Shown here: positions 5,988-23,228 of the stretch, one piece after another
Layout of the letters: each line of letters opens with the position of its first letter
Position numbering within the stretch: position 1 is the stretch's first letter
DNA from: Globomyces pollinis-pini
Lineage: Eukaryota; Chytridiomycota; Chytridiomycetes; Rhizophydiales; Globomycetaceae
Length of the DNA stretch: 23,818 nt
Direction of reading: 5' to 3'
NCBI GenBank assembly: GCA_025399215.1
Contig: MU621349.1
Span: 1 to 23,818 of the forward strand
Translations under genes and position numbers: made by a program
The notes under the pieces: model-generated
Told to the model about the DNA's origin: nothing
Database searches by the model: none
What the model saw: the letters and a program-made list of their open reading frames with translations, nothing else

Positions 5988-6587
5988 TTAGAATGATATA
6001 CCGCCAGTACAAACGGAAGGGTTAAATGACGGAGGATCGAGAGTTTCTTGAGGTTTCTTATTCAAGTTATTCAACATCCCGGCTGGATCTGATTTACGTT
6101 TTAACAACAGTTTCCCTTTTTTCTTCTTCTCTATTTGACTTACTTCTACCTCTATTGATTTATCATGATTTAGTATGGCTTTATGATATGGTCCATACAA
6201 CCAACAAGAATCTTTGTTCCAATTCAAGGTGGTTGGGTCGATTCTTTTCAAATTAAACCTACAAATATAAATTATTCATTCAACAATACCTATATCATGA
6301 TTAAACTCATATAATAATACCTCTGTTGAAAAAACTTTCTCCAACAAGCATTTTCTAACCTTTAAAAATATTAAAACAAAAGGTCCAACCTAATAAAGTA
6401 ATTAAACACTCTGGATTACACAAACCTAGCAATCAAAAGACATTAAACCATACCTTCGAACCAAATCATTATCGGGAGTATTTTTATTCTTTGTTGCATG
6501 AGACCAAGTAGCATGTAAATCAAAGGTGTTGAAGTCGTAGCTAAAATAATCGACTGTATCGTTTGAGGTTTGAATATCAGTTCCCAT
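5988..6587 (-). CDS. Small AreA-type GATA-like domain protein (PF08550)
   Basis: Exons 6587-6454, 6359-6321 and 6258-5988 give 147 residues. Joining them rebuilds the PF08550 (nitrogen regulatory AreA GATA-like) core: FDLHATWSHATKNKN, then RLENACWRKFFQQR, then TLNWNKDSCWLYGPY. The middle exon is only 39 nt and lies between two unusually long introns, 94 nt (6453-6360) and 62 nt (6320-6259), each made of back-to-back GT...AG units. The rest is a basic, lysine-rich tail (a KKKKGK-type run near residue 100) with no Cys4 GATA zinc finger. The ATG at 6587 is the only in-frame ATG before the domain; an upstream TTG was discounted. PF08550 proteins are fungal and several are linked to nutrient signalling; a role here is not assignable. 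Confidence 0.8.
6259..6320 (-). other. Double intron: two 31-nt GT-AG units
   Basis: The intron is 62 nt. It splits exactly into 6320-6290 (GTATTA...ATATAG) and 6289-6259 (GTATTG...TTGTAG), meeting at AG|GT. Removing only the first unit leaves TAT TGT TGA, an immediate stop, so both must be removed to join QQR to FNLKRID. Confidence 0.75.
6360..6453 (-). other. Triple intron: 28 + 36 + 30 nt GT-AG units
   Basis: The intron is 94 nt and parses into 6453-6426 (GTATGG...GCTAG), 6425-6390 (GTTTGT...ATTAG) and 6389-6360 (GTTGGA...AAAG), with AG|GT at both internal junctions. Using only the first acceptor gives Phe-Val-stop. Full removal joins LVR to RLENACWR as the family requires. Confidence 0.72.
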
Positions 6588-7252
6588 AATAGAAGGAAAT
6601 AGATTCAAGTGTTTTAAAAAACAAAAATTGGTCGTGGCGTTGTTGACTCGAAATGACTGTTTTAAAAGTGAGGTTTCATTGAGTTCCCAATCGCGTTCTA
6701 TTGTTCAATGAAAGGATGTGTTTAGTATTGATTCATTTATGTTGTTTGTTTTTGTTCTGATGTGTGGTTTGCAGTTGGTTGTTTTGATGGCCCCTTGAAT
6801 TTCAGTTTTACTTATCTGTCAACACGAGTTTCAGATAGACTGACAAACGTGTCTCTTCTGCATAATGTCTTTGAATAGTCATTGCAAATGTACTACAATG
6901 AAATCTGATCACACAATTTAATTAAAGTCTTACTTCACTCAATTATAGTCAGAATTAATGCTTTCTTGTGTGTTTCCTTTTTAGTAATTAATTGTTTTAA
7001 ATTAAGTTAATTCATATGATGTGCTATACGCCTATCTAATACAATATTACAAAAATTTACAATCACGTACATCAAACAACACCTATGTGTTGGATATTGA
7101 AGTGTACAATAACTGTCAAGTTTAAAATTTTTATGGTTCATTGGCTATTACATTGCATTTGTTTTGTTTGACAATCACAAGACAAATACATTAATGTTTA
7201 TTGAAAACAAAAGAAACCACTTAGAAACAAATCTTACAACTACTAAACCCAA
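6588..7252. other. Divergent intergenic region
   Basis: About 665 nt lie between the start of the AreA-like gene (minus) and the start of ODAD4 (plus), so both promoters must lie here. The DNA is AT-rich. I saw no repeat, RNA gene or open frame worth reporting. Confidence 0.5.
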
Positions 7253-8590
7253 ATGAGAAAGAATAAGAAAGAAGATGACGAAGATGATGATATGGATGAC
7301 ATGCGCATGGGACTTAATGAATCAACAATGATCAAATTGTCACCGCAAATGATCCTACGTAATACATTGATTGCGGAAGCGGACTTGTTTCTACGTTTTT
7401 CGGATTATCAACAAGGTAGTGATGTTCATCGTCCACTTACATTTGAACAGGTAGAAATAGTTTATTTTAAGCTTTCAGCTGAAAATTTGTACACGCAAGC
7501 ATTAGAGGTACTAAGAGAGATTCACTTAATTATATTGTAGCTAGATGGAAACGATATCCATGTTCTTCTTTGTCGTTCACGTTGTAGAGTTCTCAATGGT
7601 TAGTTTGTCGTGATTAATTTGTAACAGGGAATCCAATGGGGGCTGGATTGGATGCTGATAAAATTCTATCAGTTGATCCAAAGCACGTTCGAGGAATCAT
7701 TTGTAAAGCAGTAAAACATATTTCAGATTGATGATTTTAGGATGCACTCTTTACATTGGGTGATTTTGAAATGGCAATGGTTTTCAAACTCATTTAATTA
7801 AACAATAGGTAAAGTTGAAACCAATTAAGTATAGGTAACGTCATTAAAATATCAATTTCATTTATACAGGTGGTAATATTTGTCTTGGTAATAGAATTAG
7901 TGGTATTCTAGAGGACATAAGTCCAGACCGGATGTTATTGACTTCCAGAATGGAGTATCCAGATGCACTGAAGCCATCAACAAAGCCATGGGTAAATCCC
8001 ATTCTCTATTAAAACTATTTCATAGGAGGATTTGATGTGGAAAAGCTGAAGAAAATGATTGCGTTTCGTAAAATTGAAGGCAAAGAGGAAGTATCAATGC
8101 ATCTACATACGAATTATTTTAAACCAGTTGTGACTCAATCAAAAGTTCGATCTGATAATCCCATCAATCATAACCTGTTGGAAGAACTATATGAAGACTA
8201 CGTGTATCTCAAAGAATTAGAAAAAGATCCAATGTTTAATGAAGTAAATGAATAGTTTAACTCTAGGCTTTACACGGTGAAGATAAAAATATCAAAGTAT
8301 CTGTTTCCAGTGCTCTTGATTTCTTGGATGGAAGAATAGAATTCTGGAGGGTATTGTTCAATGATTAATTTTAGGCGCGTAATCCTAAAGGATTGCATGA
8401 TACAAGGTTTTCTATCATAGTGCAATTCTTATCTTATAGTGTTGTAGAAGAAGTCAATCAAATGAATCGATTTATTGTTCGAAAAACCAAAAACTTGAGT
8501 CATGATAAACCTGCTGTATTACCTAAAATACAACCTCTTGTTGCGCAAAAGGAAACTAAAAAGTCACACGAAGTCATTAAAGGAAAATAA
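7253..8590 (+). CDS. ODAD4: ODAD4/TTC25-like outer dynein arm docking TPR protein
   Basis: Eleven exons are proposed: 7253-7415, 7479-7507, 7541-7598, 7628-7710, 7741-7779, 7870-7872, 7901-7991, 8026-8243, 8267-8350, 8375-8406 and 8440-8590, for 316 residues. Splicing restores a TPR array: EADLFLRFSDYQQ plus AENLYTQALELDGND, then LCRSRCRVLNGNP, then KADALFTLGDFEMAM, WYSRGHKSRPD, FQNGVSRCTEAINKAMG. Later segments LLEELYEDYVYLKEL and ALDFLDGRIEFWRARNP also follow TTC25. The family anchors outer dynein arms to axonemal doublets. The N-terminus is acidic (DDEDDD). Simple introns are 33, 29, 30, 28, 34, 23, 24 and 33 nt; two more are composite. The 3-nt exon at 7870-7872 (Val) and the in-frame 33-nt intron at 8407-8439 are the least certain calls. 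Confidence 0.85.
7416..7478 (+). other. Double intron: 35 + 28 nt GT-AG units
   Basis: The 63-nt intron in the first TPR of ODAD4 divides into 7416-7450 (GTAGTG...AACAG) and 7451-7478 (GTAGAA...TTCAG) at an AG|GT junction. It has no stop and is a multiple of three, so a simple ORF reads through it. TPR spacing (DYQQ directly to AENLYTQALE) argues that it is removed. Confidence 0.7.
7780..7900 (+). other. Intron array: 29 + 26 + 35 nt, 3-nt micro-exon, 28 nt
   Basis: Units 7780-7808, 7809-7834 and 7835-7869 each start GT and end AG and abut at AG|GT. They are followed by GTG (7870-7872) and a further intron at 7873-7900. Keeping GTG as an exon gives FEMAMVWYSRGHK, the residue count expected from TTC25. 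Without it the helix is one residue short and the last unit would be 31 nt (7870-7900). Stops in the region exclude simple read-through. Confidence 0.62.
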
Positions 8591-8633
8591 TTGAATCCAA
8601 TAAATCAATCTGTAGACATTTTATAAACAGTTG

Positions 8634-8705
8634 AAGATTATTACTGAGTATCACATTCAATAGATAAATAAGATTATTACTGAGTATCACATTCAATAGA
8701 TAAAT
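8634..8705. repeat. Perfect 36-nt tandem duplication
   Basis: Two identical adjacent 36-nt copies (8634-8669 and 8670-8705), starting AAGATTATTACTGAG. They lie between the convergent 3' ends of ODAD4 and the next gene. Perfect identity suggests a recent event. Confidence 0.95.
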
Positions 8706-8763
8706 TCATATTATTTATCAGTGGTTAAAGAGATTTGGTCATGTAGGATCTGTTTATTTTAAA

Positions 8764-10365
8764 TTAAACTGTGTTTGGTGATATATCGAAAACACCATCT
8801 ACTAACTGAATCTTTTCATTCTCGATCATATCCTTTACAAACTGACCTTGAGTTGATCCGTCCTTTTGTAGCTTTTTAGCAAAGTTTTCATTTGCAGAGG
8901 CAAGGATAAGGTATATATCATCTGAATTTCTCCATTCTCTGTACTTGTTACTCCATAATATAAAACAGAACGCAGATATTAATAATAGTAATATGAATGC
9001 AATGACTGAAGTCCATATTGGATTGACTCGGATTACCAACACATTCCCACATTCGTTACCCGATAATGGCTTGCGAATTTGAGGTCGCATACTAGTACTA
9101 CATAATCCATAATTGAATCTGGTTCTGAGATTGGTAACCAAACTAGTTGTATTGACCGATATTGAAGTTCTTTTTTTACAAAATTTATCACCCCAAACTA
9201 AGGTCGTGAAACAAACTGATCTTAAACCCTCAAACGAAATAGTTGCTGTTCGATTATCTTGTATTGGGCGGGTAGCAATTGATAAAAGACTAGCTTTGAA
9301 CAGATCATCTACATATGTATCGAGAGATTTAGAAATGTCATCAATAAATATGCTGTAATTTGAATATAAATTGGTTGGGTTTAATGCTGTCCATGATTTA
9401 CTTGGGGTGGAATAAGACAAATCTGAGGTAGCAAGAGATGCCGAAAGGGTACATTTCACACTTGTATCTAACTGTTCTTGAAAATAGGAAAATGGCAGAT
9501 AAACGCTTTCGACTTCCTTTTCTTTAATTGTTGTTGATTCAAACCCATAACCTGCAAAACCTCCACCAGAAAGTCCTATTGGTAGGTTAAATGTCCATGT
9601 CCCAATAGTAAAACCTTCTTGTGCTTTCAGAGTTGTAATATTCTTCGATTCACTACAAGTCATAGTTCCTCGAATAAACGTTACATTGTTCATTGTGAGT
9701 AATTGTGAGGTCGGGCGGAGAGGTGGTGTCTTTAGGTAGCCAATTAACTTACCTTGGTAAACAATTGGATCGGATGGACAGTTATCAGTGATAGTAAAAG
9801 CATCAGCACTTCTGCTACCATCAGCTGTTAAAATAGTTTTTCCAATAGCAGACATTCCGACGTATTCGTGGGAAGTTTCATTTAAATCCGCAGTTGTACT
9901 GAGAGGCATATTGTAACTCCCAGTTGTGCATATGTTAAGATCCGACAAAGAGATAACGATAGGAAAGATTGGAGTAGCAACAAATCCTACAATAATACCC
10001 ACAAGAGAAACAACCATGACTGGATTGGAGATGTATTTCTTTGGAATACTTGGGAGAGAAGATAGACGATGAACATCTCGTAAGGAACAGAATTGTGATA
10101 AGGTGAGGGTGTTTCCAGTAATGGACCAAAAAGCTAGGGATGGTCTTAAATAATCTTGCAATTGTGCAATACACACCAGGAAGGCTGCAGCCAATAATGA
10201 TAAGACAACAGACATGATATTTTTCAAGGTTGAGGTGCCAATGTTCAATGACCAAGTCTCAAGCAATGGATTTCCCAAAGGCAAGAGTAACAAAACGAAA
10301 GTCACGACCAGCATTCCAGCAATAGAAAGCCAGGCTACTGAAGGGATTTGAGTGTTTTTGGACAT
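8764..10365 (-). CDS. Unrecognised membrane protein with Cys-rich ectodomain, copy A
   Basis: A single uninterrupted 533-codon frame. I do not recognise the family. Hydrophobic segments lie near residues 12-32, 46-67 and 113-140, and one lies near 447-471. Between the third and fourth is a region of about 300 residues with roughly eight conserved Cys (CTT, NCPSD, TCSES, KCTLS, VCFTT, KFCKK, LCSTS, NECG) and N-glycosylation sequons (NET, NVT, NIT, NYS, NRT, NTT), so it probably faces the lumen or cell exterior. A hydrophilic tail of about 60 residues follows. A tandem paralogue lies upstream at 10737-12320. Unlike most neighbours it has no intron in 1.6 kb. A fungal cell-surface sensor or adhesin-like role is possible but unproven. 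Confidence 0.85.
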   Translation of the reverse strand: MSKNTQIPSVAWLSIAGMLVVTFVLLLLPLGNPLLETWSLNIGTSTLKNIMSVVLSLLAAAFLVCIAQLQDYLRPSLAFWSITGNTLTLSQFCSLRDVHRLSSLPSIPKKYISNPVMVVSLVGIIVGFVATPIFPIVISLSDLNICTTGSYNMPLSTTADLNETSHEYVGMSAIGKTILTADGSRSADAFTITDNCPSDPIVYQGKLIGYLKTPPLRPTSQLLTMNNVTFIRGTMTCSESKNITTLKAQEGFTIGTWTFNLPIGLSGGGFAGYGFESTTIKEKEVESVYLPFSYFQEQLDTSVKCTLSASLATSDLSYSTPSKSWTALNPTNLYSNYSIFIDDISKSLDTYVDDLFKASLLSIATRPIQDNRTATISFEGLRSVCFTTLVWGDKFCKKRTSISVNTTSLVTNLRTRFNYGLCSTSMRPQIRKPLSGNECGNVLVIRVNPIWTSVIAFILLLLISAFCFILWSNKYREWRNSDDIYLILASANENFAKKLQKDGSTQGQFVKDMIENEKIQLVDGVFDISPNTV

Positions 10366-10736
10366 AAAACAAAAACTTTGTTCGTACCTCTGTAGCCATA
10401 ATCATGAACAGCCTAAGTGGCACAGTCACACCATTTTTAGAAACTTTTCACCAAGTCCCCTGTTTGTTATTGAATTGTAGAGGAATGGTTTCGCTAGTCC
10501 TAAAAATGAAAGACCATTCACTTGGGGTTTAAAATACATTTGTTACAATGCTATAATAATACTATTATTGGGTGAGAAGTGCTACTATCATGTATTGTGA
10601 CAGAGAATGCAAAATCAATAATAACCATCTCCAAATTGTAGACTTTCCAAACGTTATAAACGTTTTAATTGAAACTATATAAGACCGATTGTAATCTAGG
10701 TGATATGTTTATTGAAGTAAATTAAAGTGCCCATAT
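10366..10736. other. Intergenic between the tandem paralogues
   Basis: About 370 nt form the promoter side of copy A and the 3' side of copy B. I see no exon, repeat or RNA gene. A TATATAAG string lies near 10676 on the plus strand, the wrong orientation for copy A. Confidence 0.5.
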
Positions 10737-12320
10737 CTATGCTCGTGATACATCGAATACCCCATCTACTAATTGAATCTTTTCATTCTTGATCATATCT
10801 TTATCAGAGTAATCTTGAACTGTACCTTGCTTCTGAATAATTTTGGCAAAGTTTTCATTCGCAGAAGCAAGAATCAGGTGAATATCATCTGAATTTCTCC
10901 ATTCTCGGTCCTTATTCCTCCACAATATAATATAAAATGCAGAGATTAATAAAAGGAGTACTACGGCGATAACAGTAGTCCAAATTGGATTAACTCTGAT
11001 CACTAGCACCTTTCCACATTCGTTACCAGATACTGGTTTGCGAATTTGAGGTCGCATACTGGTACTACATAGTCCATAATTGAAGCGGGTTTTGAGATTT
11101 TCAACCAAACTATCTATACCTACAGATGCTGAAGATTTTCCATTGCAGAATTTGTCACCCCAAACTATGGTGGTTGAACAAACTGCCTTCATTCCATTAA
11201 ACTCGATAGTTGCTGTTTGGTTATTTAGAAATGGTTTGGTAGCAATTGATAAAAGACTGCCTTTGAAAAGATCATCTGCCCATGTATCAACTTTAGAAAC
11301 ATCATCAATATATGTGCTGTAATTTGAATACAAATTGGTTGGATTTAATGCTGTCCATGATTTACTTTGGACTGAATAAGACAAATCTGAGGTAGCTAGA
11401 GATGCTGATAGGGTACATTTCATGCTAGAATCTAACTGTCCTTTAAAATAAGAAAATGGCAAATAAACGGCCGAGGCTTCCTTTTCATTGATTGTTGCTG
11501 ATTCAAATGCATAACCTGCACCAGAAGGATCTGCTGGTGGGCGAAATGTCCATTGACCAATATTGAAGCCTTCACTTGGTTGCAAAGTTGTGATATTCTT
11601 TGACTCACTACAAGACATAGCTCCTCGAATAAATGTAACATTGTTCATTGTGATTAATTGGGAAGTTGAACGGAGAGATGGTGTCTTTAGGTAACCAATC
11701 GTTTCACCTTGATAAACAATTGGATCAGATGGACAGTTATCAGTGACAGTAAGTGCATCAGCACTTCTTCGGCCATTATCAGTTGAAATAACTCGTGCAG
11801 CAGCAGTCACGGATGTGTATTCTCGGGATGTTTGATTCAAATCCGCAGTTGTGCTGAGGGACATATTGTAATTGCTGGTTGTGCATATATTGAGATCTGA
11901 CAGAGAGATAACAATAGGAAAGATTGGGGCAGCAACAAATCCAGCTATGACACCAACAATAGAAATAACCATGACTGGATTGGAGATGTATTTCTTTGGA
12001 ATACTTTGGAGAGAAGATAGACGATGAACATCTCGTAAGGAACAGAACTGAGATAAAGTCAAAGTGTTTTCAGTGATGGACCAAAAAGCTAGGGACGGTC
12101 TTAAATAGTCTTGTAATTGTGCAATACACATCAGAAAGGCAGCAGCAAGCAAGGATAAGCAAACAGACATGATATTTTTCAAGGTTGAGGTGCCAATGTT
12201 CAATGACCAGGTTTCGAGCAATGGATTTCCCAAAGGCAAGAGTAACAAAATGGCTGTTACGACCAGCATTCCAGTAATCGAAAGCCAGGCTACAGCTGGG
12301 ATTTGTTTCTCTTTAGTCAT
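10737..12320 (-). CDS. Unrecognised membrane protein with Cys-rich ectodomain, copy B
   Basis: An intronless frame of 527 codons, starting at the ATG at 12320 (MTKEKQIPAVAW). The frame stays open upstream to a TTG at 12356, but the ATG aligns exactly with copy A (MSKNTQIPSVAW). The first 150 or so residues, with three hydrophobic segments, are nearly identical between copies, while the ectodomain differs by many substitutions and small indels. The ectodomain Cys residues are kept, as are the C-terminal helix and the motif WRNSDDI(H/Y)LILASANENFAK. The pattern, a conserved membrane and cytosolic part with a faster-changing exterior, is what one expects of surface proteins under diversifying pressure, though that is inference. 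Confidence 0.85.
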   Translation of the reverse strand: MTKEKQIPAVAWLSITGMLVVTAILLLLPLGNPLLETWSLNIGTSTLKNIMSVCLSLLAAAFLMCIAQLQDYLRPSLAFWSITENTLTLSQFCSLRDVHRLSSLQSIPKKYISNPVMVISIVGVIAGFVAAPIFPIVISLSDLNICTTSNYNMSLSTTADLNQTSREYTSVTAAARVISTDNGRRSADALTVTDNCPSDPIVYQGETIGYLKTPSLRSTSQLITMNNVTFIRGAMSCSESKNITTLQPSEGFNIGQWTFRPPADPSGAGYAFESATINEKEASAVYLPFSYFKGQLDSSMKCTLSASLATSDLSYSVQSKSWTALNPTNLYSNYSTYIDDVSKVDTWADDLFKGSLLSIATKPFLNNQTATIEFNGMKAVCSTTIVWGDKFCNGKSSASVGIDSLVENLKTRFNYGLCSTSMRPQIRKPVSGNECGKVLVIRVNPIWTTVIAVVLLLLISAFYIILWRNKDREWRNSDDIHLILASANENFAKIIQKQGTVQDYSDKDMIKNEKIQLVDGVFDVSRA

Positions 12321-12994
12321 AATAATCAAAGTCTTTAGTTCCTCACCAAATGACAATCATAAAACACCCCTGTATCACCCTGTGTGGCATTAGGCTAAGT
12401 ACAAATTGGATTCCTGCTTGCTTTTCAATGCAATTGAATACCTGATGAAAATGGCATTGAATAGCAAAAGGTCATACTTTATAATGTTGAAGTAAAGGAT
12501 AAATTAGCGTTATTCAACCAGACTTTAGATCTAACTGTGCTGCCAAGCTCAATAACATGGCCTTCAAAATAGTGAAACGAGAAAGATTCGGGTATTGAAT
12601 GCCACAGCTCTTTCAATATGTCGTCAGCAAACAGGTTGTATAATAACAAAATAGAATTTGTAGTTTGAATATGAATGATCTACAATGACTCAGAAAAACT
12701 TTCCTTTTTTAATATTTGGTGAACAAATCTAGAATACTATTCTAAAAATGCTCATTTGTTTATCATAAATGGATTACTTTGATATTGTGTGAAATATCCG
12801 ACCGCGTTAGGATTGTATGTCCCTTCAAAACCCACAATTGTTTATCTGCCTCATTACCAAAAACTGAGCATTTCTCCTTCATTAAAGGGAACTGTTTTTT
12901 GGTCCATTGAACACTTTGTTCTTACTCAACCCAAATCCATAGAGGAATCAATGCAGTTGAATCAAATCGATGTAATTTTTTTTCTTTTTTTTCC
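12321..12994. other. Divergent intergenic region
   Basis: About 675 nt lie between copy B (minus) and TYW1 (plus), presumably holding both promoters. An open frame at 12789-13010 shows no domain. Just before the TYW1 ATG lies a long pyrimidine run, T8-C-T8 (about 12977-12993), which may belong to the 5' UTR. Confidence 0.5.
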
Positions 12995-14974
12995 ATGTTT
13001 CGGGCATTAGGGACAATTGGAATAATAGGTTTAAGTGTTGCATATTTGTATCGAACTCAGAAAAAGCATGCAAAAGTAAACAAAGATTGTAAGGAAGTGG
13101 ATCTACAAATGGAAGACTCCCAAGTGGATCTTGTCGAAACAAACTGTTGTTCAACTGCTGTCGATTCTTGTTGTTCTACTACAAAAAACACTAATGGTTG
13201 TTGTAAATCTACTGATGATACTGTCACCAATGAAAAACTGATCTTGTATGCTTCTCAGTCTGGAACTAGCAAACGTTTGGCATTGGAATTGAAAACGGAT
13301 TTAAACTGTGAATGTATATCAATTGATGAATATGAAAATGAATCTTTCTTTAAAGAAAAAAGAACAATCGTGTTTATTCTCAGTAATTACCAACAAGGTA
13401 GATTTAAATGTTGTTAAACTACAGGTACACCGTCTGACTCTGCTAAATGGTTTTTCAATTGGTTACAAGAAGCAAGATATGATGTTCGTGTGGGGGCACA
13501 AGGATTATTAGGATTAAAATATGTGATGTATGGTGTTGGTGATTCAAGCTATGGTGATGAATTTTGTTCATTCGCAAAGAAAGTCGACAAATTATTGGCT
13601 GAAATGGCTGCCACTCGTGTAATGAAAACTACTTTTGGAGATATCAATGATGATTTTGAAACCTTCAATACTTTTAAAAAACATGTCAAATTTACCAACT
13701 CTGAAGGCACTACGACTATGGTTTATTCGGATGATGAACAGGAAGAAACTTATTCAGATGAAGATGAAGAGAATGAAAACTATGGTTCGGAGAATGAATT
13801 GATGGATATTGAAGATATGGGAAATGCAATGAAACCTACAGCACAATCGAATAAAAAGAAAGAAATGGTCACTCCAAAGCTTAGACAATCGCTTGAAAAA
13901 CAAAAATACAAAATCGTAGGAACACATTCTGGTGTTAAAGTGTGTCGATGGACAAAATCAATGTTACGTGGTAGAGGAGGTTGTTATAAGCACTCTTTTT
14001 ACGGAATTGAATCTCATCGTTGTATGGAAACGACTCCTTCTTTAGCCTGTGCAAATCGTTGTGTATTTTGTTGGAGATCTCACACTAACCCAGTTGGAAC
14101 CACTTGGAAATGGAAAATGGATGACTATAAAGATATTGTAGCTGGTGCTATGGAAGGACATTATAAGATGATTAATGAATTGAAAGGTGTTCCTGGTGTG
14201 AAGCCGGAACGGTTTAAAGAAGCCATGCAGATCCGACATTGTGCACTTTCACTGGTCGGAGAACCTATTATGTATCCTCAAATTAATGAACTAGTTGGAT
14301 TGTTGCATGAAAAACGTATTTCTTCATTTTTAGTAACAAATGCTCAATTCCCTGATGAAATTAAACGTATGGTTCCTTGTACCCAACTATATGTATCAAT
14401 CGATGCTGGAACTAAGGAAAGTTTATACAAAGTTGATCGACCAGTCTTTAAGGATTTCTGGGAACGTTACCTTGCTTGTTTAGACGCATTGAAGGATAAG
14501 GGTCAAAGAACAGTTTACCGATTGACATTGGTGAAAGACTTCAACACTGAAGAAATTCCAAACTATGGAAATCTAATTTCTAGAGGTACTCCCGATTTTG
14601 TCGAAGTGAAAGGTGTCACCTATTGTGGATTTTCTGGCTCACAACCCCTGACGATGAAGAATGTACCTTATCATGTTGAAGTAGCCAATTTCTGTGAAGA
14701 ATTAATCAAGCATTGTAAAGCAGATTACGAAATTGCATGTGTTCATGAACATTCATGCAGTGTACTGATTGCTCGTAAGAAATTCAAAATCAACAACAAA
14801 TGGCACACATGGATTGATTATGAAAAGTTCCACGATTTAGTTGCAAGTGGGGAATCATTTACTAGTATGGATTATATTATGGAAACGCCAAGTTGGGCTG
14901 TGTATGGAGCAAAAGAACAAGGATTTGATCCAAATGAAGTTCGTTATCGAAAGGGGAAGCTTGTTGAAGAATAA
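12995..14974 (+). CDS. TYW1: tRNA 4-demethylwyosine synthase (TYW1-like)
   Basis: Exons 12995-13397 and 13425-14974, joined over a 27-nt intron (GTAGAT...CTACAG), give 650 residues. A hydrophobic N-terminal segment (about residues 3-18) suggests a membrane anchor. A Cys-rich stretch with three CC pairs (about residues 49-70) follows, then a flavodoxin-like domain (LILYASQSGTSKR, GVGDSSYG) and an acidic linker. The radical-SAM half carries CANRCVFC (Cys343, Cys347, Cys350), flanked by SMLRGRGGCYKH and ESHRCMETTPS. TYW1 converts N1-methylguanosine-37 of tRNA-Phe to 4-demethylwyosine with pyruvate, the second step of wybutosine synthesis. The radical-SAM half is extremely close to the animal and yeast enzymes. 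Confidence 0.97.
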
Positions 14975-15017
14975 AATGAAGAATAAAATCTGTTTTTAAT
15001 ACAAGGATCATATTTCT

Positions 15018-15075
15018 CTTTCATCGATAAGATTTGGACAAGTTACCTTTCAACAATAAGATTTGGACACAATAA
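15018..15075. repeat. 29-nt imperfect tandem duplication
   Basis: CTTTCATCGATAAGATTTGG at 15018 recurs as CTTTCAACAATAAGATTTGG at 15047, a period of 29 nt. It lies in the gap between the convergent TYW1 and sulfoxide reductase 3' ends. Confidence 0.75.
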
Positions 15076-15161
15076 CCAAACACTGTATGGTGCAATTACT
15101 ATCTCAGTTTAAATTAAGAGTATAAATAGTTTAAATACTTTTATGTAACGTATCGAAAATG

Positions 15162-15704
15162 TTATACTAATGAATTCTTTTCAAAGGAATTCCATTTGGA
15201 GACTAAGATTGTAACAATGGCTTCCAATCCTTTTAAATCATATTCATCAAATTGAGACAAAGTAGTTGAGTCAATGTCCAACACTCCCAAACAAACGTTT
15301 GCCAACATCAAAGGAATGACAATTTCACTTTCAGAAGCCGAATCACAAGCAATATGACCTTTAAAATGATGTACATTTTCAACAACAATTGGTTTATGAA
15401 AAGCTGCAGCAGTACCACAAACCCCTTTCCCCATTGTGATGACCGTACAAGCGACTCTTCCTTGAAATGGACCAAGAATGAGTCTATTTTTAACATGATC
15501 AGTTAAATAGAAGCCAGTCCAGTTAATAGGTCTATTTTGATCATTCAATGCATTATGAATCAAAGCAGCAATATTTGATAAATTTGTTACCAAAGGTAGT
15601 GAAGTTGTAATCAAAGATTCTGCTTGTTGGACCAAGTCCGAATAAAACAATTCCTTTCCGTTTTGTTGTTCATCAGGAATTGGATTTTCAGGTGTTGTCA
15701 TCAT
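15162..15704 (-). CDS. fRMsr: Free methionine-(R)-sulfoxide reductase (GAF domain)
   Basis: An intronless 180-residue protein, the same length as the yeast enzyme (YKL069W). It is a single GAF domain with NWTGFYL, LGPFQGRVACT, GKGVCGTAA, GHIACDSASESEIVIP and LGVLDIDS. The three catalytic and resolving cysteines are Cys86, Cys96 and Cys120, spaced 10 and 24 residues apart as in characterised E. coli and yeast fRMsr. The enzyme reduces free L-methionine-R-sulfoxide to methionine in the cytosol, with thioredoxin as the usual reductant. There are two adjacent ATGs (15704 and 15701), and the first is used here. It diverges from the NMNAT-like gene over a 274-nt intergenic region. Confidence 0.96.
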   Translation of the reverse strand: MMTTPENPIPDEQQNGKELFYSDLVQQAESLITTSLPLVTNLSNIAALIHNALNDQNRPINWTGFYLTDHVKNRLILGPFQGRVACTVITMGKGVCGTAAAFHKPIVVENVHHFKGHIACDSASESEIVIPLMLANVCLGVLDIDSTTLSQFDEYDLKGLEAIVTILVSKWNSFEKNSLV

Positions 15705-15978
15705 TGGGATAAATTGCCGATTTGTTTTTTTCGGTGGATAATTGAACCTGACCGCACATTTGGTATCACCTGATAGTAGCCATGTGGATGGATGAGAAAT
15801 CCAAGGTTGAATAAAAGTTGGAGAGGAATGAGAATATCAACCCAAATATCAACCTGATAATGAATCTAATTCATTGCACAAAGAGAAACTTGCCAATTGT
15901 GTAAAAGAAGGGTCGAATGATGCTGATGACTCATGTATCATATAAACTCAAAAGAAACCTTCAGCAAAATCATCACAA
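15705..15978. promoter_or_regulatory. Bidirectional promoter region
   Basis: 274 nt between divergent starts. TGACTCA, a Gcn4/AP-1-type bZIP site, lies at 15927-15933, and TATAAA lies at 15941-15946, 33 nt before the ATG at 15979. Either could arise by chance in AT-rich DNA; the TATA position would imply a very short 5' UTR. Confidence 0.35.
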
Positions 15979-16707
15979 ATGATTACTGACTTAAACGTTA
16001 TTACCCAAGATAGTTTATCCAACACCGTCAAAGAATACTTTAATCAATTCAACAACAGGAACAAAGGCATCGTAGTGGTAATGACTGGAAGTTTCTTTCC
16101 AGTACACCAACAACATGTCGAAATGTGGATAAAATCAAAAGAAACATTAGAATCAAAGGGTTACAATGTTTTAATACTCATTTGTCCAACTACGTATCAA
16201 TATGTTGAACAGAAACTTGGATACTCAATGGCAAAATTCTGTAAACCATTGTTAGAGAACAACAAATCATTTGAATTGGTATGTAAATCCGTACAAGGAA
16301 TCCGTTCGGATGGTTTCTTTGTTTCTGATATTGACTTTCAACCTCAATTCAGTAACTATAACAAAACGACCTCCAAAATTCGTTCAATCATACAATCAAC
16401 TAACGATGATATAAAAGTCTACTATTTAGCTGGAGAAGACAATTTTCATAAACATATGCAACGATATCTTACCGACAAAGGACCTAATTTCGCAGATGGA
16501 CTGGTGGTCGTTCGAAGACCTGTCCAATATTTTCCGAATACGTATCACAAGAGTTATTGGTTGCATTACGTTACTTTAGCGTCTACCGAGATACCTATCA
16601 GTAGTTCGCTAATTCGAAAACGATTGTTATCAGGAAATCGAGTCGATGAGTACGTTCCAGATACTATCAAAGATGAACTTCATGAACTCTTTCGCTTGAA
16701 TAGTTAG
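15979..16707 (+). CDS. NMN adenylyltransferase-like nucleotidyltransferase
   Basis: An intronless 242-residue protein with the Rossmann-type nucleotidyltransferase signatures. GSFFPVHQQH at residues 37-46 is the GxFxPxHxxH ATP-binding motif, and ISSSLIRKRL at 207-216 is the ISSTxxR-like motif that binds ATP phosphates. YYLAGEDNFHKH in between corresponds to the substrate-binding region of the NMNAT/NadD group. The first 28 residues are an extra hydrophilic lead. Family members join ATP to NMN or nicotinate mononucleotide to make NAD or deamido-NAD. The sequence is divergent from typical eukaryotic NMNAT, so another cytidylyltransferase-like substrate remains possible. Confidence 0.75.
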   Translation: MITDLNVITQDSLSNTVKEYFNQFNNRNKGIVVVMTGSFFPVHQQHVEMWIKSKETLESKGYNVLILICPTTYQYVEQKLGYSMAKFCKPLLENNKSFELVCKSVQGIRSDGFFVSDIDFQPQFSNYNKTTSKIRSIIQSTNDDIKVYYLAGEDNFHKHMQRYLTDKGPNFADGLVVVRRPVQYFPNTYHKSYWLHYVTLASTEIPISSSLIRKRLLSGNRVDEYVPDTIKDELHELFRLNS

Positions 16708-16837
16708 ATTCACCATTCAAAGTAATAAAATTAATAAAGCTTATTTTGGGGACTTATCTTTAGTGTCTAGTAAACACAAATCAACTACCGTTCCGATTCA
16801 ATATAATTTTATTTATTTGGCTATTCAACAAATTTGA

Positions 16838-17857
16838 TCACTTTCTTTTCTTTGTTTTTTGATTGTCTGCAGCTTCCATTCGTCGTTTCTCTTGTTGGGC
16901 TTGAATCGCTTGAAACTCTTCTTCACTTGGTTCGCTAGGAACTGCTTTTGATTTTCCTTTAGGATTTGTATGTTTAGCAGCTATAGATGCAATCAACGAT
17001 TCCATTCGTGCTTGATTTCTCTCTTTCAAAGTATTTTGTAAAGATTGTTCACTTACAATCAATTCATTCTCTTTTTCATTCTTCTGATTCATTTCCTCAA
17101 TTAATTTTGCCTCTTCCAAGGCCTTCTTTTTCCTCTTTTCTAATTCCTTTTTGATGATTTTTGGAAATTTCTTCTCCAAAGGAACTTCACCATTATCAAT
17201 TGCTTCTTGAACGATCTCCTTAAACCGATCTAGGTCATCTAAAGTGCAACAAGGGACTTCATCTGTCATAGCTAACAAAGATCCCTTTGTTTTTGCATAG
17301 GCAGCCAATATATCTACTCGTTCCTGTAAAGAATCTACCAATTAAATGAAAACTAATTTACATCGATATTGTTTTTCATATTGCTGAATCGATTGTTCAG
17401 TTACTTGCCCACGTAGTGATTCAAAATAGTCGGTCCAAGACATTTCATCATCTTTTTCAAGATCATCCTTCTCGTCGATGGAACCAGTTCGATCATACCG
17501 TTCTCTTGTTGTTGGATTAACTAATACTTTATAATAAAGAGTCAATTTTTGGAATTCCAATGTTTTTTGTTCCTTCAATTCTTGAGGATGTTTATCAGGA
17601 CTATTCGTTAGACAATAATAATTACTGTAACTCTAAAGCCTTTCTTTTGTAAGCAGATTTAATGTCGGACTATAATATTAATTTGATTTTGTATAAATCA
17701 TTACCAGAGTAGCAGTCTTTTGAATTCCTAATTCCTTATACAAGTCGATGAAATTTGGATCAATTGCATCATCTAACACGATCGTCTCATCAATATCTTC
17801 CTCGCCTTTCTGTTTCTTCTTATTCTGATCCGTTTTTGGTTTGCGTTTGGTAGTCAT
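16838..17857 (-). CDS. DNAJC9: DNAJC9-like J-domain protein
   Basis: Exons 17857-17705, 17669-17626, 17600-17362 and 17334-16838, with introns of 35, 25 and 27 nt, give 310 residues. The lysine-rich N-terminus is followed by a J domain (FIDLYKELGI ... SAYKRKALELHPDKHP); the HPD triad is His66-Pro67-Asp68, and its His codon is split by the 25-nt intron. C-terminal features match DNAJC9: YFESLRGQVTEQSIQQYEKQY, then a helical segment with CCTLDDLDRFKEIVQEAIDNGEVP, then a long Lys/Glu-rich coiled coil. Human DNAJC9 is a nuclear Hsp70 co-chaperone that also binds H3-H4, and the same role is likely but inferred. Only 117 nt separate it from the next minus-strand gene. Confidence 0.9.
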
Positions 17858-17974
17858 TGTTCAGATCAATTCAACGTTTAAAAAAGAAAAAATAAAGTCT
17901 GGACAAATTCAATGAAATACACCAGTTGTACGAGTTAAATTTAATGATATATTTCAATTAAAATTCATGTAATC

Positions 17975-19661
17975 CTACTTCTTTATGACATCAAATCCAG
18001 TAGGAGGTGAAATGATTCCATAAGTCACAGCAGCAGCTTCCATAATTGAGGCAGGGAACTGCAAGAGAAATGTCAAAGGAATATGAAGTAAGATCAGGAA
18101 TGGGTTCAATTTACGATCGATATCTTGAATGACAATACCCAAGATATACAAATAAACGAAATTGACAAATGAGAAATCTTTCATGATTGCAAACCATCGG
18201 GGTGTATCATGTGGATAAATCAACTGTAATACGATAGATATCATGGTACCATACAATGATAATGTCCCAACTGACCAAAAGAATGCCCATAATTTCGGTA
18301 AGAAGTGAGGCAATCTACTAATACCCACATACCATCGCCGACGTTGTTTCAAAAATCCAATCATATCCATTGGTGATTGCTCTCTAATCAAACCAGGAAC
18401 TTTACCACATTTGTAACCCAAACTCCAAGCTTTCATTGCAAATTCATAATCTTCCGTTAATGAACCCAAATCCCATCCAACCTCATTTTCAACTGCCCCA
18501 TTGGTTAATAGAAAAGAACCATGAGCACCGAAAATAGGTCTGTGAAAATAAGAATATTGTAATTGAAATCTGGCTAAATCATCACCTACTCGGATAGCAT
18601 CTGCAACGGTAAACAACCAATTTGTCCAATAATTGTATTGATTATATAAAATCACCCCTTGACCCCAATGATATTCATGTTCATACCAAATAAATTGTAA
18701 TATTCTCTTGACACTTTCATCATCAACAACTGATTCTTCATCCAAATGCAATATCCAATCATGTTCTGTATATTTCATTGTTTGCCGATACCATTCTAAT
18801 GCCCTAGCTTTGTATTTAGAGCCTTTCGTTTGAAATGATGTGGGACATGTATAACAGTTAATTTTTTCAAATTCATAAGGTTCATCAGTGAGAACATGAA
18901 CTCGAATGGTAGGGTGTAATCGTTCCAAATGTTTATGAGCATCCCATGATCGATAAACAGCATCACGATTATCCCCTTTTGTTACTGTCAATAAATACAA
19001 GTTATCTAATCTTCTTTTTGTCATATGATTATCATATAAAAACTTTGGAGTTCTAAATGGTAAAACCAATCCAAAGAAACAAATCAAACTATAAGGTAAT
19101 GGTAAGATCCAAGCTAAAATGAACAAAAAGGAAATTACCAATCTTCCAATAACAAGAAACGTTCCATAATTCCACATCAGTATATCGATTCCAACTTTGT
19201 GGAATCATGACATTCATGAAATACACACCAGCTGTAATACAAATTAAATTGATAATCCATAATTCTGATAATAACGTCATGACAAATTTAGTATTTCCAG
19301 TATTGGTACGCACTCGATTATCATCAGCAAGAAGAGCATGAGAAAGCTCAGAAATAACATTCACTGCAGTATGTGATTTACGTTGATGTAACTTTGAATT
19401 ATTGTTGAGAGGTACACCCATACCACCAAAATTATTTGAATTGGCAATTGGATAAGTTGCATTTCGAAGTTGAGATGAATAATCTATTGATTTTCGTTTT
19501 CGAAGTTGTCGTTTTGGTAAGATTGATGAATGAGAAGGGTAGGTTGGAGAACTCATTGAATCCATTTCTTCAGCTGCTTCATCTTCAGGTAAATCAACTG
19601 CTTCATAATTAACATGGTTCCTCTGATTATTTCTCTGTAGATTCTTAGTCGTAGGCGACAT
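17975..19661 (-). CDS. Egghead/BRE-3-like GT2 glycosyltransferase
   Basis: Exons 19661-19229 and 19194-17975, joined over a 34-nt intron with a GTGTGT donor (19228-19195), give 550 residues. An N-terminal tail of about 120 hydrophilic residues precedes two or three transmembrane helices. The catalytic region shows LLTVTKGDN, LHLDEES (DEE at 296-298), GWDLGSLTEDYEFAMKAW (TED near 391-393) and QRRRW (428-432), the D, D, TED, QxxRW set of processive-type family 2 enzymes. Several helices follow. The closest familiar group is Egghead/BRE-3, beta-1,4-mannosyltransferases acting on glucosylceramide in animals; the fungal acceptor is unknown. The intron places the last split codon as Val145; its donor is non-optimal, so this junction is moderately sure. 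Confidence 0.88.
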
Positions 19662-20280
19662 GATAAAGAAGAATTGAAGATATGAAGCAGTTCAGATAGG
19701 GAACCAATGCCACTTTGGGTCAAGAAAAAAGGCGAGTTTGTAATTTTGGAACCACCTTGTATCTTCATCAAGCACAAGTAATATCTGTGTAGCATGAATT
19801 GGTCGAACTCTATCCCTGGGGTACAAAGCGTGCTTTATATCGCGTTTAGTTTTTCCTGTTGACTAGTTGAAGCCAAGTACTATAGCAATGTTTTTTAAAC
19901 AAATAGTCTTTCAAATCCCTACTAAAGAATGATATCAGATTTCCATCAGATATTCATTAAAGATCCAGCGCTGCACTGTAAAAATGTGGTATTTCACTCA
20001 ATATTTGTCTCACCAAAGTACACACTCAGTATATTTGTAGTCTAGTTTAATCAGCCAATTAATTAGGCGCTAGAGTTATTATGCGCTGTTGCATTGCCCT
20101 GATTTACTTGGTCATATAGAAGATTGGCACCCATTTTTTGGGCTAATCAACCTCCCTTTGAGAATTCATTCTACAAGGGCTGCATCAAAACATTTCTAGG
20201 TATTCAGTGATAACAAAATATGTGTATTTAAATGTCTTGTATTATATATCAAAATATTACAATTTAAAACATTCCTCCAA
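19662..20280. other. Intergenic, promoter side of the GT2 gene
   Basis: About 620 nt lie between two minus-strand genes. No exon, RNA gene or repeat was recognised. An open frame running over the GT2 5' end (19553-19795) is a shadow frame. Confidence 0.5.
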
Positions 20281-21563
20281 TTAATCTGTGTGATCATCTT
20301 CTAGTCGTAAAGAAGATTGAACAAAAGATGGTGGTTGTATAACATCGTTGAAGATAAAAGTTCTAAACAGTTAGATCATACAGTCATACCCGTAGATTAA
20401 AACAACGAATCCAACAACTTGCAACCATTTGAAGGTTTCCCAGTGTAAAGCTAGAGATGCCATCCAAATAAACAATGTCCTAGTGGTGTTATAGTTTATA
20501 CACAAACCTGCATGTATCGATTGTAGAACGAGATGTTGCACTGATATTTTTGGTGACAGCTAATCCACAATAATTGAAAATTGAGATTGAAAACATTATT
20601 CCAATTCCAGCATACAAAACTTGGGGATGTGATATTTGTCTCACCCTAAACATTTAAGTTATGGATAAAAACATACATTTCATCAAAGTTAAAGACATTG
20701 CCAGGCTCACCTCGTACACCAAGTGTAAAATGTAAGATTGGAACGGCAATCAGACTTAACGTTAATCCGAAAAGTCCTTCTAAACCAACAGCTTTCAAAG
20801 GCGCAACTTGATATCTGACCATAATTTTTTCTTCAATTACAAATTGAGACGCAGTAAAGCATTGTGCTAATACTACCAGGAAAATTCCAATTGGGGATGT
20901 TGGTGTAGCATGTTCAACAGGTTTTTCGGCACCGGAGACCAATGGTGACAGTCCAACAATAGCGACTCCAAGAAACACAACACAAAGTGCAAACCATCTA
21001 TACAAAGGATGTTTTCGACCTAAAAATATGGTGGAAAACAATCCAGTAAATAGTACCACAGATCCTCTCAACATCTGATAAATCGAAGCTGAAGTGAAAA
21101 TCAACCCAATGTTCATTAATGTCGTTCCGGTTAGATCACATAATGTTGGTAATAAAAACAATAGCTGAGCAACTCCAGTCAATGGTTTTGGGGACGCAGC
21201 TGGAATGTCGGCAGAGGATTCAATATGTTCGGGCAATTCATTTGAAGGACTGCCTTCCGGTATAGGATGATAAGTTGAATCTCCTTGTCTCTTTTCATTC
21301 CAATCCATGATCAAGAAGACAAACAAACACATAATTTCACCCACAAACATCTACAAAGATCAAAAAAAGCTAAGTATACATTGATAGTTTGGAATAGCGG
21401 TTGTTCAAAATAACGTTTGTTTGGACCATCGCAATGGTCAACACAAGTAAGATCTTGTAATTTGTTCAGTAGTGTATTGATAGTTCCTAAGTATATCAAA
21501 TATGGCAACCATACCAGTGAATAGCATCCCTGATACCAATAGAATGAGAAAAGTTCTGTTCAT
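20281..21563 (-). CDS. SLC35F6: SLC35F6-like drug/metabolite superfamily transporter
   Basis: Six exons: 21563-21515, 21486-21380, 21350-20677, 20645-20508, 20479-20390 and 20362-20281. The introns are 28, 29, 31, 28 and 27 nt, and the product is 379 residues, close to human SLC35F6 (about 371). Matching segments run in order: FTGTINTLLNKLQD, a CVDHCDGP loop, LFQTINMFVGE, LPTLCDLTGTTLMNIG, SASIYQMLRGSVV, FTGLFSTIFLGRK, VIEEKIMVRYQV, GLEGLFGL, FNYCGLAVTK and SATSRSTIDTCRTL. About ten transmembrane helices are expected, with a loop of about 40 hydrophilic residues after the second or third. SLC35F6 is reported in lysosomal and mitochondrial membranes and its substrate is unclear. The spliced last exons restore the second half that the long frame lacks. 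Confidence 0.92.
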
Positions 21564-21803
21564 TTTAGTTTGTGGGGGAAACTTCCTTCTGTACAAATAA
21601 AAAGTTTGAACCAGCCACACAGTGAAAATCCTGGATATTGAGAACACGAGGAACGTACGCAGACATTAAAAGACAAACATGACTATTAGAGATACATAAT
21701 ACTGGAGTGGTCTATTACTATTATATCACCAGCACAGATCTAAAGGAACTGTATCAATCATACAAGAATTTATTTGATTAATCTACACAATTAAACCTTC
21801 TTA

Positions 21804-23228
21804 CTATTTTAATCCAGCAGTATACTTGCGAAACATTTTTTCCCTCTCTGTTGGGTTTTTGATTGCCAAAAAACGAGGATCTTTATCAATTTTGACACAA
21901 GTCTATCATTACAAAACTAAAACTCCTTACTGTACTCCAAACCGATTGAGAGCTGAGATCTAACGTCTTGAGTAATTCTATAAAATCATTTTGGAGTTCT
22001 AAGGTTTAGAAAACATCACATATACGTTCTAATTGCGCCTTCTTTAATTTTTGAACATGTTCATGAAAGAGACTTTCACGTTTCTTTGCATCTTTGAATT
22101 TCACAAATTTTGCATCTCTTTTAAATTTTCTTGAAAAATCTTCAAATCGGGTTCGTATCTGTACATTTTGCTCCAATAAATCTAGATACTGACTTTCACT
22201 ATCCTAATACAATAAATATGCAATCGATACCGTAGATACTTTCTTTTTTTCTTGTATAATTTCTTGTGATCGTTGCTGATGATTAGAATATATTTGGGAT
22301 TACTGCACAGAATTGATCAAATACTTGTTTACGTTCTTTGAAATTTTTAATATTTTGGTATCGTGAGTCCGCTTCCAATAATGTTACTTGCTTGTCCCAA
22401 GTTAGAAATGGTGATATGGATTTTTCCTTTAGTAATTCCTTAGGATTAAAATATTCAATATCTACCATAAAATCGCTAGATAGCTCTTGAACTGATTTCA
22501 ATACTGGTGCTTCTAGGGGTTCAATTACATCCTGCACAGGTTCCTGAATTTGATCCAACTTTGGCCTTTTCGAATCTTCATTTATTAAACTGATGCTTTC
22601 TTGGTGAATCTCGTCTTCAATATGCTTTCGCTTTAAATCCACTTCTTTAGCTTCATTTTCCGTGTTCGCGTTCCCAATTGCTTCCTCTGGAATATCTGTC
22701 GACTCTTCAATGGCTGCATTATGTTGAATCTTACTTTCTTGCATGTCTTCATCTTTCTCTGCAGCTTCGTTCTCAAGATCCATTGCTTCAGCCAACAATT
22801 CTCCAATGAGATCAACAATATCATCTGGTATCTGACATAAAATATAACCAAATTAATTACCTATCATTAAAACCAAATAAAAAATACCTAAATAATAAGT
22901 ATTAGTTAAAACAAGTAATACATCCCAACTGACAGTCTTATCCGACTCACGATAGAAAAATTCATGATTGAAATTAGTCAATACAATAGCCCAATCCGAA
23001 TCAGGGATATATTTTCTACGATTATCAATACAAGTAAAATACAATTCCACAGCAACTTCTTTCTTTGGAGGAGGAGGAGGAGTATAATCCAAAGGTCGTT
23101 CCCAAACACTTTCATTTGTAATACGATTAAAGAAATATTCTCGACCATCCGGTGTAAACATTTGAGACCTACTTGGTTATTTATTCGGTTCTTTACCATG
23201 CTAAATTGATTCTTGTATCCGTACTCAT
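21804..23228 (-). CDS. TCERG1: TCERG1-like WW/FF-domain transcription-splicing factor
   Basis: Seven exons: 23228-23197, 23168-22922, 22831-22304, 22275-22240, 22203-22026, 21998-21931 and 21902-21804, giving 395 residues. WW1 (W11 ... TPDGREYFFN ... SVWERP) is followed by a proline run and WW2 (DWAIVLTNFNHEFFYR ... SWDIP). An acidic linker with basic KRKH and KRPK patches leads to three FF domains: FLTWDKQVTLLEADSRYQN...KERKQVFDQFC (about 216-269), a second at 282-336, and DFIELLKTLDLSSQSVW...EREKMFRKY (about 341-391). The order and FF sequences track TCERG1/CA150 (S. pombe Dre4), which links the Pol II C-terminal domain to spliceosomes. Simple introns are 28, 28, 36, 27 and 28 nt; one is composite (90 nt). 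Confidence 0.88.
22832..22921 (-). other. Triple intron: 34 + 27 + 29 nt GT-AG units
   Basis: The intron lies inside WW2 of the TCERG1-like gene, between TGG-GAT and ATA-CCA. Units 22921-22888 (GTATTA...TTTAG), 22887-22861 (GTATTT...GATAG) and 22860-22832 (GTAATT...GTCAG) abut at two AG|GT junctions. Partial removal leaves in-frame stops; full removal gives SWDIPDD, matching WDRPDD of TCERG1. Confidence 0.75.

Follow-up and report, generated by a model that had tools for sequence, protein, structure and literature searches.

Recursive splicing typically takes place in long introns. In Drosophila and vertebrates it proceeds at ratchet points or through zero-nucleotide exons (PMC8605326, PMC6110456). 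We analyzed a stretch of 23,818 bases from the chytrid fungus Globomyces pollinis-pini (contig MU621349.1, positions 1 to 23,818; "the window" denotes this whole stretch), together with the 18.5-Mb, 459-contig assembly to which it belongs, and examined introns that lie directly end to end. The reading that we favor, with a probability of about 0.72, is that 2 to 12 introns of 24-36 nucleotides (nt) are joined at AG|GT into arrays, that the units are likely spliced singly as minimal introns and that the arrays likely grew by tandem duplication.

These arrays resemble recursive splicing in that an acceptor abuts a donor (AG|GT), and removal of one piece would restore a donor for the next. They differ in their setting: recursive sites subdivide long introns, whereas here the whole sequence consists of 24-36 nt units, at most 12 in a row, and the twelve arrays that we measured span 60-365 nt. 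A second relative is the human UBC array, where dual-specific splice sites use AGGT as both donor and acceptor in a tandem array of sites (PMC10809524). By their sequence, the AGGT sites of the Globomyces arrays fit such dual-specific sites. The repeated units of UBC, however, are coding monomers whose number is varied by splicing, whereas the units described here read as non-coding and are all predicted to be removed. Ascomycete stwintrons bring several U2-type introns into one complex, with a small intronic duplication as their proposed source (PMC7138796, PMC8469720). Stwintrons are nested, an internal intron interrupting an external element and leaving first; the Globomyces units instead abut, each with its own GT and AG, look complete and impose no order, and none was found to interrupt the donor, branch point or acceptor of an external intron. 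Introns can also be gained by tandem genomic duplication, with AGGT at the boundaries (PMC3443670, PMC4974935). In that process the new intron is formed from an exonic segment, whereas here existing introns appear to be multiplied in place, with similar neighbors in 13 of 46 arrays and not in the other 33. The dispersed similar copies of introner-like families were not seen for the two arrays that we searched. The AG|GT logic is already known; we found no report of it as a building rule for longer introns of up to twelve units, nor any account of minimal spliceosomal introns that abut one another in arrays, in open-access full texts, a search that left subscription papers mostly outside.

Abutting introns in the window and across the assembly

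The sequence-only reading of the window had proposed that its five long introns (63, 90, 94, 62 and 90 nt) are concatenations of short introns. All five indeed tile fully into GT-AG units of 26-36 nt, and AG|GT is present at 8 of their 8 internal junctions. The arrays and the features that adjoin them are as follows.

7253-8590, plus strand: ODAD4/TTC25-like gene carrying arrays 1 and 2, from the gene model and homologs.
7416-7478, plus strand: array 1, in the ODAD4/TTC25-like gene, units of 35 and 28 nt (7416-7450, 7451-7478), from tiling; not called by the gene model.
7780-7869, plus strand: array 2, in the ODAD4-like gene, units of 29, 26 and 35 nt (7780-7808, 7809-7834, 7835-7869), from the gene model at gap 0 and from tiling.
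7870-7872, plus strand: predicted 3-nt exon GTG (Val), from the gene model; the V of (M/L)VWY in 6 of 6 non-Globomyces orthologs.
7873-7900, plus strand: single intron of 28 nt after the 3-nt exon, from the gene model.
6360-6453, minus strand: array 3, units of 28, 36 and 30 nt (6453-6426, 6425-6390, 6389-6360), from tiling; not called by the gene model.
6259-6320, minus strand: array 4, in the same gene as array 3, units of 31 and 31 nt (6320-6290, 6289-6259), from tiling; not called by the gene model.
22832-22921, minus strand: array 5, in the WW/FF gene, units of 34, 27 and 29 nt (22921-22888, 22887-22861, 22860-22832), from the gene model at gap 0 and from tiling.

Among 4000 dinucleotide shuffles with the ends kept, 309, 78, 36, 134 and 17 tiled likewise for arrays 1-5 in order. 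Multiplied as if independent, these frequencies give about 2e-9, for five arrays that were preselected because they tile. Two-unit arrays alone are weak evidence; the set of five is not, though it was picked for tiling.

Recurrence of AG|GT at intron spacing throughout the genome, which the sequence-only reading had proposed as a check, proved to be far beyond chance by spacer and reversed controls. Strict unit pairs (GTAA..TAG followed by GTAW..TAG) number 263, 75, 88 and 95 in the whole assembly at spacers of 0, 1, 2 and 3 nt. The reversed pair patterns exceed all of these counts (413, 265, 394 and 322 at 0-3 nt) and also peak at zero (413 vs a mean of 327), the forward zero excess being about threefold. 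Three-in-a-row junctions are a sharper test than pairs. Triple TAG|GTA junctions at intron spacing gave 71 matches in 46 arrays, and the reversed pattern gave 4; with 1-nt spacers there were 0 matches in either direction, and with 3-nt spacers 3 forward (two overlapping) and 7 reversed. In a 248-kb scan made without gene models, units scoring at least 7 formed 15 adjacent pairs at gap 0, compared with a mean of 2.5 and a maximum of 6 at gaps of 1-30 nt; the same scan of the reversed sequence gave 6 pairs at gap 0, with a mean of 5.6. When the pair excess is divided by the fraction of single introns matching the strict pattern, roughly 1000 junctions are obtained for the genome, or nearer 900 after subtraction of the reversed zero excess, an estimate good to an order of magnitude only.

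Gene models came from a simple gene finder with an intron penalty, for which the window, twenty 10-kb stretches and eight loci of 3 kb served as training sequence. In its final version composite introns scored the same at every spacer from 0 to 9 nt and could form chains of up to 14 units at gap 0 and up to 3 at other gaps. Given this choice, it took 7 arrays at gap 0 (2 or 3 units each), 1 at all other gaps and 466 short single introns. Once length was modeled by training, 466 of 500 single introns came out at 42 nt at most; a flat length prior had put 348 of 507 called introns at 24-36 nt. Donors are usually GTA(A/T) and acceptors (T/C)AG, and the branch-point motif resembles (C/T)T-A-A-(T/C), mostly ending 5-9 nt before the intron end; our reference single introns (n = 299) average 28.7 nt, having been selected at 22-38 nt. 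Recall was low, with 3 of the 5 window arrays missed (those at 6453, 6320 and 7416). The model called 42 introns or arrays longer than 42 nt, half of which (21) are single introns of more than 105 nt. One of the latter, in the window, joins two genes, and we suspect that some more of them do likewise.

Units, long arrays and the genes that carry them

We then asked of the units themselves whether they look like introns. The test set comprised 117 distinct bracketed units in 46 arrays, taken from the 71 triples with a search pattern that carries no branch-point requirement. YTNAY lies at the right distance in 82% of these units, in 81% of the 299 single introns and in 43% of interior-shuffled units; for the stricter YTRAY the shares are 56%, 58% and 20%. 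The 77 units from the 33 arrays without similar neighbors keep the motifs as well (YTNAY 84%, YTRAY 53%). Array units average 29.6 nt vs 28.7 nt for single introns (Kolmogorov-Smirnov p 0.012), a comparison in which unit length is bounded by the search pattern and the singles were chosen at 22-38 nt. Each unit thus looks like a complete minimal U2-type intron, with GT-AG ends and a branch-point motif at single-intron frequency, and as far as sequence goes every unit could be removed alone. That branch points have not decayed in the diverged arrays argues that the internal sites are not unused relics, and this is our chief, if indirect, argument for unit-by-unit removal.

The longest array that we examined (L033; C102:2801-4800) has 12 units in 365 nt, with lengths of 26, 25, 34, 32, 32, 28, 29, 29, 32, 36, 28 and 34 nt. 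It lies in a protein kinase gene at ..NVKIT|DFGLSNF.., splitting the DFG codons, and with the array removed the Pkinase profile matches residues 40-292 over 263 of 263 positions. All 12 units have GT and AG, and 10 carry the branch-point motif. In a database search restricted to proteins of 0.55-1.75 times the query length, the best 120 matches included no Globomyces-named or near-identical protein, the best identity being 63%, which suggests that the deposited gene set may lack this kinase or contain it in broken form.

Shorter arrays sit inside other recognizable domains. In the sampled 10-kb stretches, units of 32, 31 and 27 nt lie within Tfb2 (L019) and units of 29 and 31 nt within a phosphomannomutase (PMM; L020), and in both genes the domain match runs across the removed array. 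In these two loci and in the kinase, the repeated units read as introns and the protein domain continues across them. A six-unit array of 172 nt (L031) is spanned, once removed, by a weak Usp match (E 0.00028, slightly below the cut-off). A short-chain dehydrogenase gene (L032) is interrupted by six 27-nt units directly after its first four coding bases; there the domain match starts just past the array, and the Pfam match is no test of removal. Long arrays are also found in L029 and L030, and a 67-bp tandem repeat of 3.4 copies lies near the long intron array of L029 (177-404). For the six- and twelve-unit arrays, 0-2 of 4000 shuffled sequences tile likewise.

The ODAD4-like gene allows both of its arrays to be set against orthologs. 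Two of its 10 homologs are named Tetratricopeptide repeat protein 25, and we aligned 8 of the 10 matches (P0129 and P0130 left out), six of them from outside Globomyces. Array 1 is predicted to be removed between DYQQ and AENLYTQALEL, where 6 of the 6 aligned non-Globomyces orthologs have no residues. At the position of array 2 all six read (M/L)VWY, and by our reading the V can come only from the predicted 3-nt exon GTG at 7870-7872. The sequence-only reading needs correction here: this gene carries two of the five arrays, the second followed by the 3-nt exon and a 28-nt intron. The deposited protein of this gene (P0121) appears to mis-read both arrays. A Globomyces sp. JEL0801 protein (P0122) also contains residues that resemble the translation of the first array unit and of an intron.

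Arrays 3 and 4 belong to a small gene at about 6587-5988 on the minus strand, whose frame is continuous once array 3 is removed. The predicted removal points lie between DLVRR and LENACWRKFF (array 3) and between QQR and FNLKRIDP (array 4). The Pfam match of this gene to GATA_AreA is weak (E 0.049, below its cut-off), and the case for the two arrays rests on frame continuity and tiling. The gene with array 5, at about 23228-21800 on the minus strand, encodes a WW/FF-domain protein resembling TCERG1/PRPF40, a family linked to splicing. Beside this gene and the ODAD4/TTC25-like gene, the window contains one that reads as TYW1. Two adjoining tandem paralogous genes at 8764-12320 on the minus strand have membrane-protein-like products without Pfam matches. 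Rfam and tRNA searches of the window gave no match.

Origin of the arrays and competing explanations

Among 71 adjacent unit pairs, 21 are more similar than the 99th percentile of unrelated pairs, where under one would be expected; they fall in 13 of the 46 arrays and range up to identical copies. Tandem Repeats Finder recognized the L032 array as a 27-nt tandem repeat, and in L029 and L030 it reported repeat periods of about 31-32 nt; on the diverged kinase array it found no repeat. Microhomology between an exon-final AG and the AG at the end of the intron might guide such duplication; exons end in AG before 4 of 10 arrays vs 153 of 537 single introns, a comparison with few arrays. On sequence grounds some arrays give good support to tandem duplication. 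The diverged majority may equally have arisen by duplication with later divergence or by insertion of unrelated introns at AG|GT. As to dispersed introner-like families, the two array sequences searched across the genome matched only their own locus, in a search that skips very common words and needs more sequence than one unit of about 30 nt provides.

If insertion were the rule, the arrays would stem mainly from unrelated excised introns reverse-spliced into an AG|GT junction, the best protosplice site, and not from tandem duplication. We consider this possible, if on the unlikely side: 33 of the 46 arrays have no significantly similar adjacent pair, and AGGT has been reported as a preferred site of intron gain (PMC3443670), but the side-by-side similarity in the remaining 13 and the absence of copies of the two searched arrays elsewhere, within the limits of that search, speak for duplication. 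A different challenge concerns splicing itself. The arrays might be removed in one step, by pairing of the first donor with the last acceptor, and the AG|GT sites inside them would then be unused relics of duplication. Single introns of 63-76 nt are predicted, so the spliceosome may handle such lengths, and where the units of an array are recent near-copies, relics would still appear intact. We nevertheless regard one-step removal as rather improbable, since arrays of dissimilar neighbors keep YTNAY at the single-intron rate (the 84% of 77 units above) and the diverged 365-nt kinase array retains its GT and AG throughout and its branch-point motif in 10 of 12 units.

Translation of the units as tandem repeats, in effect coding minisatellites, is very improbable. 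It would draw on the 63-nt ODAD4 array, which lacks a stop in one of its three frames and is translated in the deposited protein. Yet stops occur in every frame in 9 of the 12 arrays checked (the exceptions are this 63-nt array, L023 8856-8771 and L020 1236-1301), 5 of the 12 have lengths not divisible by three, and the six ODAD4 orthologs lack the residues in question; together with domain continuity, this led us to set coding repeats aside as unlikely. The least probable explanation, to the point of being negligible, is that AGGT occurs by chance in ordinary longer introns and that gene models were picked to fit. Two-unit arrays do tile in up to 8% of shuffles (309/4000), but the five window arrays are jointly very improbable, triples stand at 71 vs 0 and 3 with spacers and 4 reversed (0 and 7 for reversed spacers), and the six- and twelve-unit arrays are hardly ever matched by shuffles. 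Chance tiling was accordingly ruled out by the spacer, reversed and shuffle controls.

Several observations weigh against reading the arrays as tandemly duplicated, singly spliced introns. With the motif applied here, no branch point is seen in 1 of the 13 units in the window or in 2 of the 12 kinase-array units. The loosest units show 254 pairs at gap 0 in the reversed control vs 145-233 at gaps 1-30, and because of this zero-gap excess we relied on the strict threshold. The array search was keyed on TAG and GTAW, which leaves arrays with decayed junctions unsampled, and the neighbor-similarity test did not control for local base composition. Of the 46 arrays, 33 lack any adjacent pair above the similarity threshold, and for these a tandem origin is one possibility. 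In the deposited ODAD4 protein (P0121), array 1 is retained as 21 residues and the 26-nt unit of array 2 is read as exon; that model counts against us if it is RNA-based, and the six orthologs contradict it. Finally, the flat prior gives 144 of 507 introns longer than 42 nt, many of doubtful quality, which leaves the length limit unproven, and non-tiling single introns are predicted outside the window, of 76 and 63 nt in the L023 gene and of 74 nt in a gene reading as a kinase (L028).

The longer single introns bear on a further claim of the sequence-only reading, that introns in this genome extend mainly by concatenation. Concatenation at AG|GT is real and recurrent; "mainly" is too strong, as the predictions also include longer, non-tiling single introns. 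In 224 kb the gene model found 7 zero-gap arrays vs 13 single introns of 43-105 nt, with the low recall for window arrays noted above. The predicted single introns of 76, 63 and 74 nt suggest that a length limit, if there is one, is soft, and that some longer introns are not arrays.

A proposed mechanism and its implications

Single introns are mostly 24-36 nt long, from which we infer that efficient pairing of splice sites by the spliceosome is confined to roughly this range. If pairing were good only over about 24-40 nt, a duplicated intron could not become one longer intron. The added unit would have to leave singly, and its own donor, branch point and acceptor would be kept under selection. 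A donor could be paired with the acceptor of the same unit or of one further along, and whether the units left in one order or another, or several at once as a block, the mRNA would be identical provided that all units leave. With the same mRNA whatever the order, gain and loss of units would be nearly neutral, and copy number could drift as in a minisatellite. We lean slightly towards this wider picture, in which the spliceosomal intron would act as the repeat unit of satellite-like arrays, the narrow length limit would keep units complete, and up to eleven zero-length exons would be passed by order-independent recursive splicing under neutral, minisatellite-like turnover.

Ordinary gene annotation appears to miss the array arrangement. 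The conflict between the deposited ODAD4 protein and six orthologs, together with a kinase that has no near-identical protein among its best 120 matches, indicates that genes may be lost when such genomes are annotated. It is chiefly from long introns that recursive splicing is known, and here the same AG|GT logic is found at the smallest intron size and genome-wide. If our reading is true, these arrays would offer a natural test of an upper length limit in splice-site pairing and of the free use of zero-length exons, as well as a test of intron origin by in-place duplication of old introns.

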